Shown: positions 3,569 to 51,200 of the stretch, one piece after another | How positions within the stretch are numbered: position 1 is the first letter of the stretch | Layout: every line of letters begins with the position of its first letter | Assembly: GCA_030272155.1 (NCBI GenBank) | Contig: CP126198.1 | Location: 2,480,001-2,544,000 of the forward strand | Direction of reading: 5' to 3' | Origin: Tetradesmus obliquus | Lineage: Eukaryota > Chlorophyta > Chlorophyceae > Sphaeropleales > Scenedesmaceae | DNA length: 64,000 nt | The notes under the pieces: model-generated | The model's input: the letters and a program-made list of their open reading frames with translations, nothing else | The model's database searches: none | Told to the model about the DNA's origin: nothing | Program-made: the position numbers and the translations under genes

Positions 3569-4141
3569 TGTTTAGGTATGTTTGAATTCGGCTGCATAGC
3601 TGGGGTTGAAGCGGCTTTGTCAGTTTCCGCTTCTTATGCCGTGCATACATGCTGTTGTTTGGATGGCCCATCGGGTGCTTCGCACGGGGTTCCTTGGCAT
3701 AGCACACTGGGATGGCAAGGTCGCTCCTGCAACAGCGCATCAGCCAGTCTTGTACAGTTCAACCTACCAGGGAGCTATTGGTTGGCTGTTGAGTGGCCAT
3801 AGCCATATGCATGTGTGCATGCGCATTGGGCCAGTGGGCATATGCATATACATTGGTTCTTTGCAGTCTGGGGCAGCAACAGTATAAAGGGTTACAGCAA
3901 CAGTAGTAGCGTCAAGTTACATGTGAACAGGGCGCATGGCTGTCACTGACTCAGTCAGACTGATGGCATTGGACCATGCAGGTGCCACAAGCACCAACGT
4001 CGATCGCTGCGGTCGCGTCAGCAGCGAAGTGTAGCAAGCAGAGCTACGACCTGGCCATGTAGGCAGGCACACAGCGTGCCAAGCTCCAAATCTACGGATC
4101 GCAGTGCACGTGCACCAGTGTGACGACCAGCCTGGCAGGGC
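3569..4141. other. intergenic region
   Basis: No gene recognised. There are only short open frames without motifs, and a small palindrome (CTGACTCAGTCAG) near 3948. Confidence 0.4.
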
Positions 4142-4864
4142 CAGCTGGGTATGGTACAAACGTAGCATCTGCATTTTGCAACAAATCAACACAGCTTGCA
4201 AGCAGACAGCCATGCTGGCATAGCAACCTGCTGTATGTGGCAGGCACAGTAAGGCACAGCTGCCAGTGCTGCTGCTTTGGTTTGCTTGCATCCCAACTGC
4301 ACAGCAGGGCCCCCACCTGCCAGCAGCAGCAGCTTCAAACTGCTAGTAATTTTGAGCTCCAGAATTCGCCTTGATCACACAAGAAGGATGTTTGCAGGAA
4401 ACTGTGTAGAATACTAGTCCTCAACAAACTCTGTGCAGCCACACTAGCTGCACGCGCGCAGCAGCTGCCGGTGGGCCTGAAGCGGTGTTGCGCAGTATGT
4501 CACAGATATGACAGTTGAAACTGTATGTGCAGCGCACAGCGCCAAGCAGCAGAGCGCAACAGCAGCGGCAGGGCACTTGGCACACCAGAACTGCAGTGCC
4601 TGATCAGCCAGCAAGGGAAGCCCAGAAGTATTACATTACACATCAAAACATGTTGCAGGCAGCAGCACCCACAGCAACACTCTACAGCGCAAGTTAACAT
4701 ATGTAACAGTCGAGTCGGGGCACTTCAGGGCAACGTGTTTTTAGCTCTTTTCTTGCAGTACACTGTGCCACTGCTAACAGCTCAAATTGATTTAGATTCG
4801 TCGTTGAAAGCTTGACATTTATATGTAGGCCACTTGTTCGCTACGTTTGTACCATGCCCAGCTG
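4142..4864 (+). mobile_element. 723-bp TIR element, copy 1 (MITE-like)
   Basis: The left end CAGCTGGGTATGGTACAAAC is the inverse of the right end over 25 bp, with one mismatch at position 9 (T against C). The interior carries only short ORFs (up to 96 codons) and no transposase motif, so it would be non-autonomous. The copy at 8424-9146 appears identical, offset by exactly 4282 bp. Confidence 0.75.
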
Positions 4865-4972
4865 AGACCGGTCAAACTCCATGATGCCGCAGGCTGTTGT
4901 TTGACCTGACCAGTTACTTCTGTTCACACTGCTGCTAGAAGCACAGCTAACATATCCATACGTTTTGGATTC

Positions 4973-7176
4973 ATGCCTGCAGGGGGGCTGTCCATGGTGC
5001 GCAAGCACCCTTCAGGATGGAAGAGCAACCGCAGCACCACGGCCATGAGGGTGGCGGCGGTGGTGTGTGTGATAATGGCTTTGACCACAGCTGACGAAAA
5101 GTTTACGCCCGCATATTATTACATAGAGCAGTACCCTGACTACGCCAAGGAGGTACACGGGGACCTGAACCGGTTCTGCAAACTTCATCACAAGAACTTC
5201 ACAGCAAACGGCACAGTGGCTACACCCAAGCATGGCGGCAGGCCCTCAAATGTCCCACATGCTGTCGCCTTCCATGCCAGCACAATATTCAAGGCTGGCA
5301 AGGTGGTAAAGGCCTACCCATCGGCAGATTCAAAGAGAAAGGTTGATGTGCACGTGTGGTGGACTTCAATCGAAGTCGCATGTCAGGAAAATGACACACT
5401 GCGCCAGCTGTGCACTGACTACAACATCACACCCAAGAGACTGCTGAAGTACATGAAATGGGCTGACCCCGACCTGGTGCGCAGGAGAATAGATGTGAAG
5501 CTGGACTTGACAAAGATACAGAAACAAAGGCGAAAGGCAGCAGCTGCGGCGCTGTGGCAGAAGTACCAAAGTGACCCCGACATGCTGCAGCGCATATATT
5601 TCGTTGATGAGTGCAAATTCTGGATGTCAGACCTGGCAGGCGGCTCCGTCAAGGTCTATTGTGATGCACACGATGAAAACGTGCATGCTGTGCTGCCATG
5701 CAAATGGATGCGCAAGGGCAAGGACGCAGAGCCGGTCAAGTTGCACTTTGTCTGCGCCGTCAACGCTGTGCACGGGCCCGTCTACTGCAAGTTTGTCACC
5801 GGCACAACAGACAACAAGGACCATGCTGGCAACCTCAATGTACCGTACATGGTGAGTGTGCGCTGCTACTGCGCAGGCGCCTGCCATCGAAAGACATGCC
5901 AGCCCTGCTGTACTGTGTAGTAACAGTCCCGCAGTGCTTTTTTTAGTGCTGTAGTGAAGCTGCAGCGCTGCCCGTCCTCTGCTGTGAACATAACAGCAGA
6001 GTAACTTGGTGACAGTACAATGACACCACCTGCAGCAGCAAGCTGGAAACCAATGTGCAAGGATTGGTGCATGTCACATCCGCGCGTGCTCACGCGCAGC
6101 ACACTGCCCCCTGGCTGCAGCCAGTTGTCATATGCTGCAGCGCAGAACTCAAAGTCGCGCTCCAGCACCTGCTGCCTGCTGCTGCTGTAATAACCCTTGT
6201 CATGACATGAGCCATCAGCTTGAATCAGCATGTTGTGCTGTGCATGGAGGAAATTAATCCGCCCATCCCACCAGTCCACTGCTACCTGAGCACACATACT
6301 GCTGCTGATGCCTAACCAATACAGCATGCACACCAGCTGCTCCTCGCTTGTGTGCATGTAGCCCATGCATGTGCCAACCATATCAGCCAGCACACATGCA
6401 CACATCTTGCACTGAAGCGCTGCTGCTGTGGCGACTGCACGCGGCGCGCAGAACTTGAAGTGCTGCACACCTGGCAAGCAGCCAGTCAAGCCCCAGAACA
6501 ATCTCTGCCCCCTCATAGACTTGGTGATGTATCTGACCTTGTCTGCACTGAGCCTGATGTAGAAGCGTCCCATCGCATCCATCCACACCGCTGCGTTGCG
6601 CTCCTGCGCTGCTAACAAGGCTGCGCGCTGCCAATCCGGCAATTCTTGCACCTGCAGTTGAAGGACAAACCAACCCAGCAGGCCAAGAGCATGACTCAGC
6701 TGGAGTTTGTTCACTGCATGATGGAGATCAAAGACATAGCCAACCAACAGCAGGCGCAGCGCGGCACTACGCCGCTGTACATCTTTGACAACCCAAGTGT
6801 TCACCTGGGGAAGGATGGCCTACAGATGTTGGTTGCAGGTGGCATCAATGAAGATCAACTGCTGCACATTGCACCCTACTCCCCAGATTTCAACAAGCCC
6901 ATTGAACATGCATTTGGCAGCCTCAAAGCAGCCTTCCGCAACTACTTGTATAACAGCTGCCAGCTGGGTGGTGCTGATGTGAAGCCGCGAGACCTGCAGC
7001 ACGGCCTGTACAACACCTTTATGAAGATCACAGCTGCATCTGTCATGGCTGATGTATTGAAGCTGCCAGATTTGTGGAACATGGTGCGCAGCCGCAAGAG
7101 GAGTCTTTGTGTGTGCCGAGACGGGAAGCAGCGCCGCGGCACTGCTGGCGACTACCCCAGGAAAGACCAGCGCTGA
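4973..7176 (+). CDS. Tc1/mariner-like DDE transposase, one intron
   Basis: Exons 4973-5851 and 6658-7176 join in phase 0 (donor GTGAGT, acceptor CTGCAG) to give 465 residues. The N-terminal part resembles a helix-turn-helix region (GGRPSNVPHAV, then PKRLLKYMKW). The catalytic core is readable: first Asp in YFVDECKFWM, second Asp in LYIFDNPSVH, and the typical PYSPDFNKPIEHAFGSLK segment bearing the third acidic residue, with 38 residues between the second Asp and that Glu. The motifs fit the DDE_3/IS630-Tc1-mariner superfamily and all three acidic residues are present, so the enzyme may be active. The upstream Met choice is uncertain; MRVAAVVCV at 5045 is an alternative. A TGTAA motif lies at 7584-7588. 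The gene sits between the two identical 723-bp TIR elements, which it might mobilise. Its 806-bp intron is almost wholly occupied by an antisense ORF. Confidence 0.85.
5866..6582 (-). CDS. antisense PD-(D/E)XK-nuclease-like ORF inside the transposase intron
   Basis: A minus-strand frame stays open across virtually the whole transposase intron and runs to 6804 in the second transposase exon. Inside the intron the first Met (MDAMGRF) lies at 6582, giving 238 residues. The C-terminal half has the layout of Vsr/DUF559-type nucleases: EEQLVCMLYWLG (helix with Glu), GRINFLHAQHNMLIQADGSCH (two strands ending in xDG..H), then RDFEFCAAAYDNWL and SVLRVS. In relatives the strands usually read DF...IE(V/I)DG; here they read NF...IQADG, so two usual acidic positions are Asn and Gln. 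The protein may be inactive or a divergent family. Expression is unknown. A separate mobile insertion that became an intron, or a homing-endonuclease-like passenger, are possible readings. Assignment is by pattern only. Confidence 0.5.
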   Translation of the reverse strand: MDAMGRFYIRLSADKVRYITKSMRGQRLFWGLTGCLPGVQHFKFCAPRAVATAAALQCKMCACVLADMVGTCMGYMHTSEEQLVCMLYWLGISSSMCAQVAVDWWDGRINFLHAQHNMLIQADGSCHDKGYYSSSRQQVLERDFEFCAAAYDNWLQPGGSVLRVSTRGCDMHQSLHIGFQLAAAGGVIVLSPSYSAVMFTAEDGQRCSFTTALKKALRDCYYTVQQGWHVFRWQAPAQ

Positions 7177-8423
7177 GTCTGCTGTTGTGCTGCTGCATGG
7201 CATGTAGGGATTGTGGCTGTCAGCTGCATGCAAGATGGCTGGCCAGCAGTGCACAGGGTGTCACTCAGAGAGCCCTTGAGCTCACCTGTTTGAGGGCACC
7301 TGCGCTTGTCGCCGTCCTGCATGTTCGCACCGCCCGGGGCTTGGGAGGTGCTGGCACCATGCTGCTGTAGGGTGGTTACTTCCTGGTGTTCACCTGAGAG
7401 CGAGTGTGGGAACAAAATGGCATGTTCAGAAGCTTATTGTATGAGTAAACTACATGTGGATGTTGTGCTTTGGTGCTCAGACTTGTCAGGAGCGGTTCCT
7501 GCTTCAAACGACTGCTGCAAGGCAGCAAGGCACTTGGTGGCCATTTCACATACAGGCATTTGCAGTCATGCTGAATTGCCGAATGTAATGGTAAAATTCC
7601 TGTCATAATTCAACTACGCTCGAAGCTCTTGAACATGGCTCCTGCTGCTGTCACTCGCGTTGGTTGTGACGACTGTTGGCCTGCCAAGCGATATGCACGG
7701 AGCCTGCAAGAAACCTTGCGGTCGATTAACTTTTAAATTTGATGATTGATTTAAGCATGGCTTGAGCCGAAATAAACTGCGATATGGTGAAGAACTTCAA
7801 GACGGAAAGGTGCCCTGAAACAAGCCTGCTCCGAGCCACACAGCTGCCACGCTGCCAACTTATCATCGTCGACACATTATGCAACGTACCTTTGGTTAAA
7901 GCAGAAAACCAATCCTGACGGGCCCTCGCAAGCCCACGTTGCAGGTGAGCCTGACGGGTCAACACGGATGTCCAGAGCACTGCAGCTCGATCGCGCTGCT
8001 GCAGCACCTGCATACAATTTGTTTTGAACATTGAACGACGTTAAACACAGCGCAGTGCTGAAAGGCTTCGCCAAAAAATTAGGTGGCAGCAGTGAGGCAC
8101 CTGCTGGCACATGCTGCTGCTGTCACGCCCACCAACAACTGCAGTTGAAAAACACATGCCACCGTGATTCACAGCACACATAGCTGTAACGTTTCCTGTT
8201 GTCTGCTGCTGCTGCTGCTCCTGCCCAGGCAGATATCATATATTGCAAACAGTGCTACTGCCGCAGTAAAATCAGCTGCATACCCAGCAGCAGCAGGAGC
8301 ACATCAGCCATAGCATAAAAAGGTAGGTGTGCACTTCAGGCACCAAGTCCAGGAACAGCAACAGAAGGGATGCAGTGCAGGCTAAGAACTGCTGCAGCAA
8401 AGGCTGGCATGCAATCACAGTCT
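7177..8423. other. non-coding part of the transposon region
   Basis: Downstream of the transposase stop. It contains a TGTAA motif at 7584-7588 and a locally AT-richer stretch (about 7570-7910), then a CTG run near 8203-8220. No second transposon gene is seen. Confidence 0.45.
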
Positions 8424-9146
8424 CAGCTGGGTATGGTACAAACGTAGCATCTGCATTTTGCAACAAATCAACACAGCTTGCAAGCAGACAGCCATGCTGG
8501 CATAGCAACCTGCTGTATGTGGCAGGCACAGTAAGGCACAGCTGCCAGTGCTGCTGCTTTGGTTTGCTTGCATCCCAACTGCACAGCAGGGCCCCCACCT
8601 GCCAGCAGCAGCAGCTTCAAACTGCTAGTAATTTTGAGCTCCAGAATTCGCCTTGATCACACAAGAAGGATGTTTGCAGGAAACTGTGTAGAATACTAGT
8701 CCTCAACAAACTCTGTGCAGCCACACTAGCTGCACGCGCGCAGCAGCTGCCGGTGGGCCTGAAGCGGTGTTGCGCAGTATGTCACAGATATGACAGTTGA
8801 AACTGTATGTGCAGCGCACAGCGCCAAGCAGCAGAGCGCAACAGCAGCGGCAGGGCACTTGGCACACCAGAACTGCAGTGCCTGATCAGCCAGCAAGGGA
8901 AGCCCAGAAGTATTACATTACACATCAAAACATGTTGCAGGCAGCAGCACCCACAGCAACACTCTACAGCGCAAGTTAACATATGTAACAGTCGAGTCGG
9001 GGCACTTCAGGGCAACGTGTTTTTAGCTCTTTTCTTGCAGTACACTGTGCCACTGCTAACAGCTCAAATTGATTTAGATTCGTCGTTGAAAGCTTGACAT
9101 TTATATGTAGGCCACTTGTTCGCTACGTTTGTACCATGCCCAGCTG
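8424..9146 (+). mobile_element. 723-bp TIR element, copy 2 (MITE-like)
   Basis: Same length, orientation and, as far as read, identical sequence as 4142-4864, including the 25-bp inverted ends. Flanks are CACAGTCT on the left and GGCACTTG on the right, with no evident target duplication. Confidence 0.75.
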
Positions 9147-9487
9147 GGCACTTGCACACACTGACAGCCGATCACTCCGCGAGATAAGGGCTGTGACGTA
9201 GTTTGCAAGTTTTGGTCACGTCACACTCAACTCACACACTCGTAGAGTTACGCATTCACGATGATCGTCTCGCCTCCTTCCGAGACCAAGGTGACCATGT
9301 GCACAACATTCTACGACGATGCACCACGGTCAGTGCTGCCTCAAGTGCCTGGATTTCGCGAATCAGGGTTAAAGAGTGATTCCATGGACTCAATATCTCC
9401 CGAAAAAGGTTGAGCGGCCCATGTGCCGGGAGTGACAGTGTGAGGGTCCAAAATACGGATGAGTGACGTACGAGTTCACCACAAGGC

Positions 9488-17000: not shown

Positions 17001-20000
17001 AGAGCTACACCATAGGATGAGCATTGCGGGAATCATCTGCACTTTTCCTAAGAGTCCAAGGTTTCTGGACACCCAGCACCACTGCTTGCAACAGCTAACC
17101 ACCATGCTGCAAGGTACAAGCTCACAAGCGTGCCTCTGCACTTCCACGTCTTTCTGCTGCTGCTGCTGCTGCTCTGCCAGGGCCTCCCTCAACGCTTCCT
17201 CAGGCAGACCATACAGTGCCGCCGCATTGTCACCTGGCGCGCCCAGCACACCCTCCAACAACCCAGCCTTATGCGCAAACGCGATGCAGATGATACTACC
17301 ATCGCAACTCACCAGTGTCCTCGGCATCCTCCAAGCTCTCCTGCTGCTGTGCAGCCAAATGGTCTCGCCAGGCCTCCTCAGCCAGGCCGTACAGTGCCAC
17401 TGCATCATCCACCTGGCGCGCCCAGCGCCACCACAACAACCCAAATCCTCTGCTCACAAAAGACATGGATTCCATATTCATTGCAACTCACCAGTGTCAT
17501 CCGCATCCCCAAGCTCTTCTGCTGCTGCTGCCACTGCTGCTGATGCTGCTGTGCAACTAATTGGTCTGGCCCTCCTCAGCCAGGCCGTACAGCGCCACTG
17601 CATCGTCCACCTGGCGCGCCCAGCGCCACTCCTAAACCCAATCCCCTGGTCACAAGAGGCACATATCCCATCACTGTAACAACTCACCAGCGTCCTCGGC
17701 ATCCTCCAAGCTCTCCTGCTGCTGCTGTGCGGCCAGATGGTCTCGCCACGCTTCCTCAGCCAGGCCGAACAGTGCCACTGCATCGTCCACCTTGCATGCC
17801 CAGCGGCACACCTCAACCCAGTCCTTCTCTTACAAAAGGGCACAGATCCATAGATGTGACAACTCACCAGTGTCCTCGGCATCCTCCAAGCTCTCCTGCT
17901 GCTGCTGTGCGGCCAGATGGTCTCGCCAGGCTTCCTCAGCCAGGCCGAACAGTGCCACTGCATCGTCCACCTTGCATACCCAGCGGCAAACCTCAACCCA
18001 GTCCTTCTCTTACAAAAGGGCACAGATCCATAGATGTTACAACTCACCAGCGTCCTCGGTGTCCGCCCAGCTCTCCTGCTGCTGCTGCTGCTGTGCAGCC
18101 AAGTGGTCGCGCCAGGCCTCCTCAGCCAGGCCGTACAGTGCCACTGCATCGTCCTCCTGGCGCGCCCAGCGCAATCATACAACCCAATCCCCTGGTCACA
18201 AGAGGCACGGATCCCACAACTGTAACAACTCACCAACGTCCTCCGCATCCTCCCAGCTCTCCTGCTGCTGCTGTGCGGCCAGATGGTTCCGCCAGGCTGC
18301 CTCGGCCAGGCCGAACAGCGCCACCGCATTGTCCACCTGGCGCCCACAGCACATCCTCCGAAAAGCCAAGCCCCTGCGCAAACGTAATGCAGATGATACT
18401 ACTATCGCAACTCACCAGTGTCCTCAGTGTCCTCCAAGCTGTCCTGCTGCTGATGATGATGCTGTGCAGCCAAGTGGTTTCGCCATGCCTCCTCAGCCAG
18501 GCTATACAGCGCCACTGCATCGTCCACCTGGCGCGCCCAGTGGCACCCCCAACCTTGATCCTCTGCGTACAAACAGATCCCATAGCTACAACAACTCACC
18601 AGCGTTCTCCGCATCCTCCAAGCTCTCCTGCTGCTGTTGTGCGGCCAGATGGTCTCGCCAAGCCTCCTCAGCCAGGCCGTACAGTGCCACTGCATCGTCC
18701 ACCTGACGAGCCTGCTGCGCCGCCTGGGCAGCAGCCAGCAGCGGGCGCACCTCGGCAGGGCAGCAGCCAGGCGGCAGCACAGCCTCCTGCAGCAGCAGCG
18801 ACAGCAGCAGCAGCGGCAGATGGGGAGATGGTGGTTTGCAGCCAAGTTCAAAGTGGCGCAGTCGCTGCACTGCATGCAGCTGAAGCAACTGCCACCACGG
18901 GTGCTTTACACCGTCAAGCGTGCGCTGACCAGAGGCCGGGATGTGCAGCTGCTGCACAATACCAACCAAGTGCGGCTGTGGCTGTTCTGCTGCTTCAAGG
19001 CACTGGCAGCCTGCTGCTGGCGGCTTGCATGCAGCGCAAAGTGCAGTAACGCCGTCAAGCAACCTACCTGCAGCATAACTGGCATGTAGGTAAGGGACGA
19101 CAGGTGGTCGTGCGCCCTGCTCTCAGCAGCTGGGTCAAACTGCAGCGACCACCACTCCTTGTAGGGGTCAGCAGACAGCTGCTGCAGCATGCGCCCTGCA
19201 GGTACAGATTCACAGCAACAACGTGCAGCCACGCTCACACACATATAATGTTGCAGCGATAGGCAAGGAGATGCACGTCAGAATGATGGCATCACTGTTG
19301 GCTGTGTGTTGCAGGGTACCTGCTGGTTGGCGTACACAGCTGTGTTGCACTATCACCGACGAGACAGACATCACAACTTAAACAGCGCAGCCATCACCAT
19401 CAACCACAACTGTATCCTCTGTATACATCTAGCACCAATCATGATCAGTCAACTGCACACTGTCTTTCTCTGCACTCACGCTTGAAACTGCCGGCCTTCT
19501 GGCTTGCCTCACTTCCTCCTCCCCCTGCCGCTGCCCCAGCCGCGGCACCGCCCCCTCCCGCCAGCAGCTGCTGCTGCCCAGGCAGTGGCGGCAGCCCCAA
19601 GTGACTCAGAAATGCCACCACCTGCTGCTCAGGCTGCTTCAGCGGGCTCGCCTGCAGCCGCCGCGCCGCAAAGACGGCCAGGCCGCACATGGCCAGCGCT
19701 TGGGTGAAGCCAGGGCTGTCCAGGCCAGAGAACACACACGCCTGCATGATGCAGATGTGAAGAATGCAACAATGGTTTGATACAGCAGCATTGAAAAGGC
19801 GAGGCCGCACATGGCCAGCGCTTGGGTAAAGTTTTGGCTGTCGAGGCCAGAAAATACGCGCGCCTGCAGCGAAATGCAGCAGCACAAATGTCCACAGGGA
19901 ATCAACATGGCAGCCTGAAGAACATCCACAAAGCCTGCCGCTCCTACACACAAAACCAAACCATCACAGCGCACCTGGTCTTGCTACTGCTGTATGAGCC

Positions 20001-34079: not shown

Positions 34080-36605
34080 GGCAGCATGTGATCTAAGAAC
34101 ACAGTGCTGTCATGATGGTTGTGAGCACGTGATGCATCCATCTGCCTGGTGTGCTTCTGCTGGTTGCTGTGGCAGTGCTGCACCCGGCGCTGCAGTTGTG
34201 CACGATGAGGTGGGGGCCGCAGGGGCCCCAGGAGCACTGCCTGCTGCTTTTGTTGCTGACGCTCAGAGGCAACCATGCTTTTCTGTCATGATACTTCAAG
34301 CATCAAGTTGTTGCCAGCACACTATATCCTCGACGAAATACATGATGCGCAGGCATGAGCTGTTGTCAGCGGCTGATTGATTTACAGCTGGTGTTGAAAA
34401 GTGTCAAAAGGCAGCCGGCTGCGAGTTGTGGCAGCGTGCGAGGTGAAGCTCTTGCATCCAGCAATGTCTTGCCAACAAAGCTGCAGTTTGGGTTCTTTGG
34501 CGGATTTCATGGTGCAAGCGCAACGCCTAAGCCCTAAAACAAAGGCGGGTGTGCCACAGTGTAATCTCGTTCTTACAAATCAGCATACGTATGTTACACA
34601 TCTGTACAGTTCCCACACCACCCCTCGCCAAGGCGCTTCATTATGCGCATGTTTCAGGCAGTAACACTGTTGCACCCCACGCACCTCCAAACAACTGGCA
34701 AACCACTCAATATGTGGCCGTTGCAGGCCGACAAGCACATCTGACCTACAACCAATAACACACAGGCACCGCTGTTGCTCTGCTGCTACCTATCTGCCCG
34801 CTTTCTCCTGTGCATACACCCACTCACAGCCAAGACACTCTACTCACACACACTCTTTTTGAATCCAGAAACCTAGAAACCCGAGGCAGGGGATAATGTC
34901 AGTGTTATATCCTCTTCAACTGCTATACAGCACATGTGTCAGCATGGTGCAATGAGGGATGCTTGTGCCGCTGGACAGTGCAGCTGCTGCTGGTTGCAGC
35001 AGCACGGCTGCCACAGTCACACACTTGCTGTATCTGCAGCAGCACGCCTTTTAAGCTGGGCAACACAGATTCCTGCAGCTCCATCCGGCTGAACCTCCCA
35101 GCCCAGCAAAGCCCCAGAGGTCTAAGCAGGAGCCGCCGAACGCAGCATGCAGGTAATACAGGACACATGCTGTCACGTTGCGCAAGAAAGTTTTGGTTGT
35201 TCTCCTGGACGTGGTTTGGCGCGTCGCCATGCTTCTACTAGTGAGAGCAGCAGCACAGCGTCAGCAGGCTGCTGCAGCGCGCTGAAAGCTGCAGCGCGGC
35301 AAATGCACATGCACAAGACCTCGCTGCACCATATCATTTGAAACTGCTAGTCGTAACTGCTAGCCCGGCACAGCAGCGGGTCTGCATTGACCTAATGCTG
35401 TTCAATATGCAGCAGCCAGCAGTTAAAGCCCTGCGGTTAGATCCTTTGCGCTGCGCCTTATGTACATGCGCAGAAGGCACATCTAGAATAGCACACTACC
35501 CGGGGCAGCTGCCCGGTGTTTGACGATTGATACTGCAATGCTGGCGCATGCAGTGCATTGCAGTGGTGCCATGCAGGACGCATGAAGCACTTGCACCAGC
35601 ACCGACCATTGAGTCAAAGTCAAAGATGAGTAGCCAGCCGTTAGCAAGTCGCACTGCACCACACATTTTGCAAATGAGTACAGGTGTGCTACGGCCAGTG
35701 TTTGAACAGCTGCTGCTGTGCAGGTGTCTGTGCAAACCACCTGTGCTATCAAGCAGAGCATGCATCACATGTGCACGGGTTGTACTGTGCATCAACCAAC
35801 CGCTGCGGTGCATTAAACAACCGCAGACCCGCAGTTCTCAGAATAGTCTGTCAGGCGAAGCTGCTGCTGTGGCAGCACACACATGTCAACCGCTGTACTG
35901 TGCTGCATAAACCAACCGCAGCTGTGCAGTTCTGAACAAAGTGTGCCAAACTGCGCCGCACGCAGCCGCTGCTGTGCATATAAGCTGTGCGCAGGCAGCG
36001 AAGCAAGAGCCAACTGCACACCGCTGCGCCAATGATCACACATCGACATCATCACATCAGAGCATTTTGTGTGTCATTACAACACGAGGGATCAGACACC
36101 AGACAGCCGTGCGCCTACTGCGCAGTCACACAGAGTGGAGCCACACCTTGCAAGTTGCAAGGCAGACATCATTGCTACAAGAACCTTGGTGTCACCTGCA
36201 GGATGCTGAACGGCAGCACCCGAGTGCAATGACCAACAGACAGAACAAACCCAGTAACAGCATGATCATGTAGGCAACGGCATCACGAGTGCACTTGCTG
36301 CTGCTGTGCTGCAGCTGCCAGGCGATAACGACCCTAGGCTCAGCACTTGGCCATTGCAAGGGTCTCATCACACACTGATCACACACAACATGCATGAATA
36401 GCGCTTCTTCCAAATCAAAGTGCAGCTCCTGCTCCACATGCACGTGTCAACCAAACCGTCCTGAACAAGCCTGTCACCTCTGCTGCCATGCAGCAGCCTG
36501 ACGCCACACAAGCTGTGTCATGCTTCTGGATGGCAGCTGGCAGAGCATCACTGGCTGCTGCAAGCTGCAGCAGCCTTTGGATCGAAGCTACGCAGCTGCC
36601 ATGCA
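34080..36605. other. long intergenic stretch
   Basis: No gene recognised in 2.5 kb. Open frames on both strands are short, overlap each other and have no motifs. CTG content is lower than elsewhere. Confidence 0.35.
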
Positions 36606-37330
36606 GCAGCAGAACCATGTGTGTGGCAGCCGCAGCCAAGCAGCCGCAGCCCCAACACCTGTCCTTGCACAATATTCAAACAGCTGCCACGCCGCGGCCA
36701 AGCAGCCGCAGCCAAGCAGCCGCAGCCAAGCAGCTGCAGCCAGGCCGCCGCAGCCAAACAGCCGCAGCCAAGCAGCCTACAGCCGGCCAGCCTGCAGCAG
36801 CCTGACCATGAGTGCCGCTGCCCCAGCCGGGCAGCCGCAGCCCCAACACCTGTCCTTGCACAATATTCGACAGCTGCCACGCCGCGGCCAAGCAGCCGCA
36901 GCCAAGCAGCTGCAGCCAGGCTGTTGCAGCCAAGCAGCCGCAGCCAAGCAGTCACAGCCAAGCAGCCGCAGCCAAGCAGCCTACAGCCGGCTAGCCTGCA
37001 GCAGCCTGACCATGAGTGCCGCTGCCCCAGCCGGGCAGCCGCAGCCCCAACACCTGTCCTGACGCTACTTTCGACAGCTGCCACGCCGCGGCCAAGCAGC
37101 CGCAGCCAAGCAGCTGCAGCAAGGCTGCCGCAGCCAAGCAGCCGCAGCCAAGCAGCCGCAGCCAAGCAGCAGTCTGCAGCCGGCCAGCCTGCAGTGTGCA
37201 GCAGCCAGGCAGCCGCAGCCCCAACAACTGTGCCTGCAATATTTCCATACAGCCGCAACGCCGCAGCCAAGCAGTCGCAACCAAGCAGCCACAGCCAGGC
37301 CGCCACAGCTCCAACACATCTCCTGCACCG
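36606..37330. repeat. nested minisatellite (14-bp units in ~190-bp higher-order units)
   Basis: Runs of the 14-mer GCCGCAGCCAAGCA are embedded in about four higher-order units marked by CCCCAACACCTGTCC (about 36651, 36841, 37042) and CCCCAACAACTGTGC (about 37220). Spacing is about 178-201 bp. Frames are open on both strands only because of the repeat. The array lies downstream of the expansin-like gene. Confidence 0.8.
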
Positions 37331-48264: not shown

Positions 48265-51200
48265 CCTGGAGAACATCCAGCGCGAGGTGCTCATCCTGCG
48301 CAAGCTGCGTGGCACGCTCAACGTGGTGCACCTGGAGGTGAGGCAGCCGCCCGGCTGTTCATGAAAACTTGCAAACCATCATGCTGAACCCTTAGCAGCA
48401 AGGTGAGAGCCCTGAACATAACGCTTGCAAGGCATCCAATAGGTGTTGAACCAGCGCGAGGTGTCGATTATGCGCAAGCTGCGTGGCACGCTGAACGTGG
48501 TGCACCTGGAGGTGAGGCGGCCGCAGGTTCCAGCATCTTCTGAATCCTTGCAATATGCCAGCCCCGAACCTGTGACTTCACACACTGAACCGGAGCATTG
48601 TTGCTCATGCTGCGCAAGCTGCGGGGGACGCTCAACGTGGTGCACCTGGAGGTGAGGGGGTGCTCAAATTCTAGAAAAGCCAGCAATGAACCGTACACGG
48701 CAGATTTATGGTTTTGAGCGCTGAACCCTGCTGCTGCTGCATGCCGCCGCGCGCCGTGTACAAGGACGAGAGCCTCGTGCACATTGTGATGGAGTCCTGC
48801 ATGATCAACAAGCGCTGTGCATTACGTTGGGACAGCAGTTGACAACATGACACTGCTCACGACGGTCGCTACCTGTTACTGCGTGTTGCTGCTGCATCTG
48901 CTGCATGCTGGCGCAGGCCGTGTATGAGGATGAGAGCCATGTGCACATCTTGATGGAGTTCTGCAGGGGCGGCGAGCTCTTCCACCGCATGGGCAAGCGC
49001 CACTACAGCGAGCGCACCGTGAGTGGGCCTTTTGGCATTGTTATTTTTCATTTTGACTTGCTGAATGACAGCTTGTCTGTAGCTGGCGCTTGGTGCAGTT
49101 GGGCGGGCTCTTCCACCGCATGGGCAAGCGCCACTACAGCGAGCGCACCGTGAGTGGGTTTTTTGGCGTTGTTATTTTTCATTTTGACTTGCTGAATGAC
49201 AGCTTGTCTGTAGCTGGCGCTTGGTGCAGTTGGGCGAGCTCTGCCACCGCATGGGCAAGCGCCACCACAGCGAGCGCACCGTGAGCAGCCGGCTCTGCAG
49301 CTGCTCAACAACAGAGCTTGTTTAAACAATTGATGACAGCTATCTGCCTCTGCCTTTTGTAGCGGTCGTTTGGTGCAATCGACAGTTGCGTGCAGTTGCC
49401 TGGATTGTACGGCTATGCTTGCTCAGCATCATCTGAGTGGCTGCTGCTGCCGAAGTTGACCAGCCGGCCTGTGCGGTGCGGCAGTGACATGGCCTGCAGA
49501 CTCTTTGCTCAGCTAGTGCTGCTTGATGGCTGCTGCTGCTGCTGCCGCAGGTCGCCAGCTACATGCGTGCGGCGCTGCAGCTGCGTAACCTGCAGATGCC
49601 TTGATCTCTCCCCTGTGACTGCTGCTGCTGCTGCTGCTGCTGCTGCAGGTTGCCAGCTACATGCGTGCGGTGCTGCGCACGCTGGCTCAGTGCCACCACC
49701 ACCGCATACTGCACAGGGACATCAAGCCGGGCAACTTCATGCTGCTGACAGAGGCAGAGGATGCACCACTCAAGGCAATAGGTGAGCGGGAGGATAAGCG
49801 GGCTTCTAAACCACATGCAGCAGCAGGACTACTGCTTAGTGCGTGTGCAAGTGACATCAAGCGGGCAAAGTTTCGTGCTGCTGACAGAGGCAGAGGATGC
49901 AGCACTCAAAGCCATAGGGGAGCGAGTGATAGGGCGCACGCGGCATTGGCATGCAGGCTCTGGCTTTGAACAGCGCATCCTCTGCCTCCGTAAGCAGCAT
50001 GATTGTGCCCGGCTTCATGTCCCTTGCACGTGCTGTCAGCAGTGCTGCTGTCGGCATGGTGCCTGCCAGGCGTGCAGCTGCTGACTTTCTGACCTGCTTT
50101 GTAATCCTTCCAAGGTGTTTTGATGTTGTTGCTGCTGCTGCTGCTCGTTCTGTTGCCACATCTGTGCTGCAGACTTTGGGCTTGCGGTGTTTTTTGACCC
50201 TGACAAGCTGCCGCTGACTGACCTTGGGCTAGAAGGCACGCCCTGGTACATGTCGCCTGAGGTATGATCACCGCCGGTATCTGCTTTTGCGTTCTGCTTG
50301 CTGCGTTGATTAATGGTGCCTGCACAGCACTGTACTGTCAAGGGTTCGCCCTGGTAGATGTCACCTGAGGTGGGGCCAGGTTTCTTGCAGCTGCTGGAGA
50401 ATTTGGTTCCTGTTACTCTTTCTGCTTTCATGTGACAGTTAGCACATGTCGCCACCTGAGAGATCAAAACAACTCTGGCAGTGCTGCTTTGCTTGAGCTG
50501 CGTTCGCCTGCACAACTTCCCTGCGCTCACTACAAGCGGTTTCCTGCAATCAACAACAGCCGTATCATCAGATGAGCTCTAATGGCGTATGGCTGACCGC
50601 TGGCATGCATGCACGCCCAGCACTTGCAGCAGCCGCTGCACACTGTGCAAGTCAGCTGTCCTGAGCCTCTGTGTGTGGCTTCACTGCCACTGCTGCTGCT
50701 GCTGCTGCCTGCGCAGGTACTGTCTTCAGCAGTGGAGCCAGCCAGTGATGTGTGGGCTGCAGGAGTCATGGCCTACCAGCTGCTGTCGGGGCGCTTCCCA
50801 TTTGATGACTGGCAGCATCCTGATGCGCCTGCACTGTCGCTGGTGGGTGGCAAGCATGGCATGCAGCTGCCGCAGTGGTTGTTTGCCAGCTGTCAGCATT
50901 TGAAGTCAAAGTAACATGTTATCATGACTGGCAGCATCCTAATGCACCTGCGCTGTCGCTGGCGGGTGGCAAGCATGGCATATAGCTGCCGCAGTCGCAG
51001 TTGTTGTTTGCCAGCTGTCAGAGTTCTAATTTAAATGCCTCAAACAACACGGAGCTGGGTGTGCACACGATGCAACTCCTGCGTCTACTCTGCCTGTCAT
51101 GCGGTGCACATAGTCAACTCTTGCCCAGGCACTTCTACCTATCTTGTCTGTGACATCTGCTTGCATGCGCAGAAACAGAGACAGTGCCTGCTTTGGTTTA

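Follow-up and report, generated by a model that had tools for sequence, protein, structure and literature searches.

An 806-bp intron in a transposase gene of the green alga Tetradesmus obliquus is probably a fixed component of a DNA transposon with a composite-like design, and the long open frame on its complementary strand is probably no longer kept as a gene by selection in the sampled copies. The composite-like element, which is of Tc1/mariner type, is a more solid and more interesting result than the antisense frame. The window analysed is a stretch of 64,000 nucleotides (C8:2480001-2544000) from a genome of 17 contigs and 104.66 Mb. It contains the following features, in window coordinates.

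4139..4141, no strand: left target-site duplication GGC (right copy at 9147-9149)
4142..4864, plus strand: left 723-bp terminal direct repeat (M), with inverted ends at 4142-4166 and 4840-4864, CAGCTGGGTATGG...CCATGCCCAGCTG
4865..8423, plus strand: core (I), 3,559 bp, between both direct repeats
4973..5851, plus strand: transposase exon 1, in-frame ATG at 4973 or 4994; dN/dS about 0.50
5852..6657, plus strand: predicted intron, 806 bp, GTGAGT...CACCTGCAG
5866..6819, minus strand: antisense open frame, 317 codons from stop to stop
6157..6258, minus strand: DUF559-like stretch, INF here and IDF in most variants, followed by QADGSCH; subthreshold Pfam match on two other copies
6658..7176, plus strand: transposase exon 2, with the second D (IFDNPSVH) and E (SPDFNKPIE); PF13358 match below cut-off; dN/dS about 0.48
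8424..9146, plus strand: right-hand terminal direct repeat (M), 723 bp, with the same sequence as the left one

The transposase, its intron, and the element around them

Splicing of the transposase intron is predicted, and the segment at 5852-6657 is considered a real intron because three ORFs from this genome, each uninterrupted at that point, are colinear with the predicted spliced protein on both sides of the junction. This homology is the best evidence for the intron (blastp E-values of 3e-6, 6e-6, and 0.008, against a database of those three ORF sequences only). Residues 256-383 of the spliced transposase align to the ORF at locus L039, the L042 and L040 ORFs align similarly, and all three exceed the PF13358 cut-off. 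The sole Pfam match of the transposase is PF13358 (DDE_3), found by exon 2 alone with an E-value of 5e-5, under its cut-off, and by the spliced protein with an E-value of 5.7e-5, so the score is not raised by splicing. The motif YFVDECKFW in exon 1 probably holds the first catalytic D, going by its position in the family.

The intron boundary bases are invariant in 31 aligned rows, comprising the window, four longer stretches (L044-L047), 20 chosen variants (L048-L067), and six search loci, some of which share one array. No indels lie inside the intron in these rows. Substitution events in the same rows number 56 over the 806 nt of the intron, and 40 over 857 nt and 29 over 519 nt of the exon stretches counted. 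A search of the algal genome with a 34-mer representing the intronless junction gave no match within three mismatches. An earlier note had placed an 806-bp intron between two transposase exons at 5852-6657, and both the invariant borders and the colinear spliced alignment uphold this placement.

Four other places in the genome hold Tc1/mariner-type transposases over the PF13358 cut-off: L039 (C6:5907559), L040 and L041 (C17:1097277 and 1106553), and L042 (C6:1613270). L039 also has a frame that resembles a LINE-type endonuclease by eye. L040 and L041, 9.3 kb apart, have equal scores and the same listed ORFs.

The transposase lies in a core flanked by two M repeats that are 100% identical. Each M has its own 25-bp inverted ends (96% complementary), and the element termini read CAG...CTG. 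Three of the three monomer insertions read on both flanks have 3-bp target duplications (GGC, AAT, and AAC). By hand count, copies occur on at least 12 of the 17 contigs. Some are solitary, and others form tandem arrays whose period is either about 4,282 (I plus M) or about 3,562 (I plus 3). The longest array among the matches listed has 27 units (C5:1,160,657-1,267,673, also a hand count). All nine units sampled from the C5 array are identical over 3,200 bp, and 10 sampled units of a C17 array fall into two forms with two differences.

The left border of the core was read 35 times. It is M in 27 readings and another core in eight, which represent seven different junctions. At these core-core junctions the separators are CAG (four), CTG (two), and CAGTG (one), all of which are terminal bases of M, and all three kinds are present within one C5 array. 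For mariner elements, the transposase is reported to cleave one of the strands at a point two or three bases in from the element end (PMC2642840), and CAG, CTG, and CAGTG scars are what would be expected if M were excised by a transposase cutting in this way. The transposase may cut at the ends of M, which would enable it to move either the whole M-I-M unit or just M. Once an element has inserted, the arrays would grow by recombination between its direct repeats.

Several other arrangements accompany these copies. Lone inverted cores or 723-bp repeats interrupt otherwise uniform arrays at C3:7.158-7.213M, C5:4.690M, C16:212.8k, C5:1704669, and C5:1712513, which suggests inversion or re-insertion at inverted ends. 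In a C16 array, a 5,558-bp stretch with virus-like frames (L072:1807-7364) sits between two M repeats (one read), and copies at 894290, 904848, and 915406 on C16 are spaced 10,558 bp apart. Pfam matches in the L072 stretch identify a C2H2 zinc-finger protein and an AAA_33 kinase-like protein; a further frame, with no Pfam match, looks like an adenain-type protease by eye. A diverged piece of this stretch occurs again at C16:950000. Elsewhere in the window, outside the transposon, tandem or near-tandem repeats of about 75-96% identity lie at 17115-18724, 36602-37309, and 48971-49285.

The open frame on the complementary strand

The intron was said in the earlier note to be open on the minus strand except at its start, and this is so: a stop lies at 5866-5868, and the strand is open from there through the rest of the intron. 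The frame was also said to fill the intron exactly. This does not hold, since the frame spans 5866-6819 and continues 162 nt into exon 2. Within the intron, the frame has its first ATG at 6582, at a distance of 75 nt from the acceptor end, and a start there would give a protein of 238 amino acids. When the intron is shuffled with its dinucleotides preserved, only six of 5,000 shuffles have 263 or more open codons in at least one frame. The same openness is reached by 96 of 632 overlapping 806-bp segments of the window, coding ones included, and the window has 21 stop-to-stop frames of at least 260 codons, counting this one. Period-3 base composition is weak in the intron (P=0.029), compared with P=0.001 for each exon, P=0.63 for the 3' tail of the core, and P=0.90 for the 723-bp repeat. 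By codon-usage score, two other frames of the intron rank above the antisense frame.

The C-terminal half of the antisense protein was described in the earlier note as having the layout of DUF559-type nucleases, a description that survives in part and suits most variants slightly better than the window copy. The [IV]DF ... xxDGxxH register of DUF559 (PF04480) is present in IDF variants, and DUF559 is the sole Pfam match of the two such variants scanned (E-values of 0.051 and 0.069; 0.017 for the C-terminal half of one of them alone). The scores of 13.5-15.4 bits are below the curated gathering cut-off of 20.6, and the window copy, which has INF, gives no DUF559 match. Among nine controls of the C-terminal half (one reversed and eight shuffled), two match other families with E-values of 0.037 and 0.043. 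The position of the window's N is D in 20 of 23 distinct variants and N in the other three. An acidic residue is expected before xDG in DUF559; in all 23 variants this residue is Q. The catalytic pair is incomplete: D is found in 20 of the 23 variants, and E in none of them.

The Pfam match uses the very motif that had been named from the sequence and so provides no independent support. A loose expression of this motif finds the antisense site and two unrelated sites in the six frames of the window. Four host loci with a DGxQHF pattern were considered as relatives and set aside: they contain the motif by construction, and L070, the only one scanned, encodes a RAP-domain protein. Neither the window form nor the IDF form of the antisense protein has a usable match in NCBIfam, PHROGs, PADLOC, PDB, phage records, IMG/VR, or GTDB contigs, and no relatives of the frame were found in the collections searched; the one PDB match has an E-value of 2.3. 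Transposase exon 2 also has no matches in IMG/VR. AlphaFold2 run without an alignment is uninformative here: the antisense protein has a pLDDT of 38.7, and exon 1 of the transposase, which served by itself as a partial control, has 34.3. On balance, the earlier note observed most of this correctly, and the nuclease likeness it named is a fair but weak lead.

Selection was compared on both strands in the 31 aligned rows, with each distinct change at a site counted once. Exon 1 has 17 synonymous and 23 other changes (dN/dS about 0.50, P=0.026) and exon 2 has 13 and 16 (dN/dS about 0.48, P=0.038), giving 30 and 39 for the transposase overall (dN/dS about 0.5). The antisense frame within the intron has 10 synonymous and 46 other changes (dN/dS about 1.69, P=0.96). 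Fisher tests of transposase versus antisense give P=0.0035 (30/39 versus 10/46) and 0.0009. Thus, in the same copies, purifying selection acts on the transposase strand and not on the antisense strand. The idea that the antisense frame is a kept module fails here, with a dN/dS of about 1.7, not below 1, while that of the transposase is about 0.5.

Three rows have frame-breaking indels or a deletion. When they are removed, the P value for exon 1 becomes 0.055 and the antisense counts become 5 synonymous and 38 other (ratio 2.75). The synonymous changes are then fewer than expected (5/43, two-sided P=0.025), a shortfall that neutrality alone does not predict. Stops occur in three of 23 distinct antisense variants and are absent from the remaining 20. 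Two lie at codon 257 of 263 and one is in L066, a copy whose exon 2 breaks off. With two stop events observed versus 2.98 expected, there is no deficit of stops. In the C16:260k array, the single unit read has a frame shift near codon 240 of the antisense frame.

The selection test covers one subfamily. A 39-mer from the transposase core finds 268 places in the genome with up to three mismatches, and a 39-mer from the antisense motif finds only 163 under the same limit. Because transposase and intron queries give 268-281 first-look candidates, we infer that the remaining 106 or so places are complete copies in which the antisense-motif region has diverged. This shortfall fits an intron under less constraint than the exon. 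As these roughly 106 copies are unplaced and lie outside the alignment, the test is restricted to the sampled subfamily, and any constraint confined to them would escape it. The matches listed for short peptide queries aimed at them seem, from their positions and their number, to belong to the sampled subfamily; 41 probes (L075 and 40 others) missed them; and a pattern from the C14 variant gave 20 matches, all identical to that variant. Two newly located and read copies, L073 and L074, both belong to the sampled subfamily.

If the frame is not maintained, as preferred here, it may be a long frame that arose by chance where stops are scarce, or else the decaying remnant of coding sequence, captured or formerly on the complementary strand, that once resembled DUF559. 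A chance origin in stop-poor, CTG/CAG-rich sequence without any coding history has close to an even chance of being correct. It accounts for the absence of selection, for the equal openness of 96 of the 632 window segments (coding ones included), and for the scrambled sequences that reach Pfam E-values of the same order; the rarity of such a frame among dinucleotide shuffles (6 of 5,000) and the period-3 signal (P=0.029) count against it. A captured or fossil coding fragment of DUF559 kind, derived from a host gene or a former transposon gene, is a tentative second possibility. Its period-3 signal would be a residue of coding, being weak in the intron and absent from the core 3' tail and from M, and it would also fit the length of the open frame, the DUF559 register, and the neutral pattern of change. 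However, no source gene was found: the matches listed from the alga's own genome are near-identical copies of the element, which neither exclude nor show a host source. For the preferred reading as a whole, difficulties include that the frame is longer than in most shuffles, that its composition has a weak period of three, and that the intact rows have fewer synonymous changes than expected.

Known systems, alternative readings, and significance

The closest known parallel is KolobokP, a group of composite-like DNA transposons from seven animal phyla (Kojima and Bao 2022, PMC9587614). The earlier note had missed this parallel. In KolobokP elements, as described in that paper, long terminal direct repeats, each bounded by inverted ends, enclose an internal region that encodes a transposase, and multimers occur. 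Excision of the repeat alone leaves internal-internal junctions, and most families encode a His-Me nuclease on the complementary strand, which is proposed to induce unequal crossover. KolobokP is described there as unlike any other DNA transposon in its long terminal direct repeats, and a literature search gave, among the matches listed, no second DNA transposon of this kind.

The algal element is likewise framed by long terminal direct repeats that have inverted ends, and its interior encodes a DDE transposase. It also shares the tandem multimers with a common repeat and the junctions between internal regions after repeat loss. Target duplications are short in both (3-5 bp in KolobokP and 3 bp here), and both have a frame on the opposite strand, a nuclease in KolobokP and only nuclease-like in the alga (PMC9587614). 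The two also differ. The Kolobok transposase has C/DxxH between the second D and the E, whereas the algal one is Tc1/mariner-like with DQLLH, a DxxxH by eye. KolobokP ends are 5'-RR...YY-3' and these are CAG...CTG; KolobokP scars lose flanking bases and these keep 3-5 element bases; and KolobokP hosts are animals, not a green alga. Arrays of up to 27 units, among the matches listed, are a further difference from KolobokP, as is an antisense frame that lies inside a transposase intron, is weakly DUF559-like, and is unselected in the copies read (PMC9587614). Searches with Pfam, NCBIfam, and other profiles found no His-Me finger nuclease on the complementary strand, and no nuclease family passes its cut-off. 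To judge by its sequence, the element has the KolobokP architecture yet is no member of KolobokP: it combines a Tc1/mariner-like transposase with CAG...CTG ends and with scars that retain element bases, and the searches revealed no His-Me nuclease.

Tc1/mariner elements have TA as their target-site duplication. Since the duplications here (GGC, AAT, and AAC) are not TA, this is not a canonical Tc1/mariner element, and it further differs from the IS630/Tc1/mariner group (PF13358) in its composite ends and in its own Pfam score, which is under the curated cut-off. The DDE core, the SPDxN-PIE block, and colinearity with same-genome members over the cut-off are shared with the group. The short excision scars are also mariner-like, being compatible with the offset of 2-3 bases given for mariner (PMC2642840).

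Could the antisense frame be a working nuclease of PD-(D/E)XK type, expressed from the complementary strand, whose cuts within or close to the 723-bp repeat lead to unequal exchange, and hence to tandem arrays, as proposed for the KolobokP His-Me nuclease? This is unlikely, even though KolobokP elements of the same architecture do carry a complementary-strand nuclease (PMC9587614), a parallel that counts against the preferred reading. Complementary-strand position and multimers both match KolobokP, DUF559 is the sole Pfam match of the two IDF variants scanned, no stop interrupts the frame in 20 of 23 distinct variants, and the arrays of up to 27 units among the matches listed are near-identical where sampled. 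On the other hand, purifying selection is absent from the frame, the DUF559 match is subthreshold with two of nine scrambled controls close behind, Q replaces the acidic residue in 23 of 23 variants and N replaces D in three, no homologue was found in the collections searched, and the one unit read of the C16:260k array is frame-shifted near codon 240. The structure prediction is uninformative on this point (pLDDT 38.7, against 34.3 for the exon 1 partial control). The broader proposal, a second and independent lineage of composite-like, multimer-forming transposons of Tc1/mariner type in a green alga, in which an intron-nested complementary-strand DUF559-like nuclease promotes tandem amplification, is just as unlikely.

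The intron resembles introners (PMC9860276) in being a repeated sequence that is a spliceosomal intron; it differs in that, in copies with aligned surroundings, it occurs in its own transposase only, with no spread into host genes seen. An introner-like or homing module spreading into many genes is very improbable: the three related ORFs compared have no intron at the corresponding position, but the intron matches scored are full-length copies (the best 40 of 269 and the best 150 of 281 candidates), all 31 rows with aligned surroundings lie in this transposase, no intron-free junction of this transposase exists within three mismatches, and no independent movement was seen. Much the same evidence, together with a dN/dS that is not below 1, goes against the suggestion of the earlier note that a second selfish module had inserted in the intron.

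For the preferred reading, in which the intron is a fixed part of the transposon and its antisense frame is not maintained, one lesson is caution: in CTG-rich genomes, a long open antisense frame or a motif look-alike should be tested for selection. The different M scars within one array make cut-and-paste movement of the repeat directly testable. The element would also bear on whether multimers need a nuclease, as its candidate nuclease frame is unconstrained in the copies read and yet its arrays reach 27 units among the matches listed. If the same design is indeed found here with an unrelated transposase, composite-like architecture would have arisen repeatedly.
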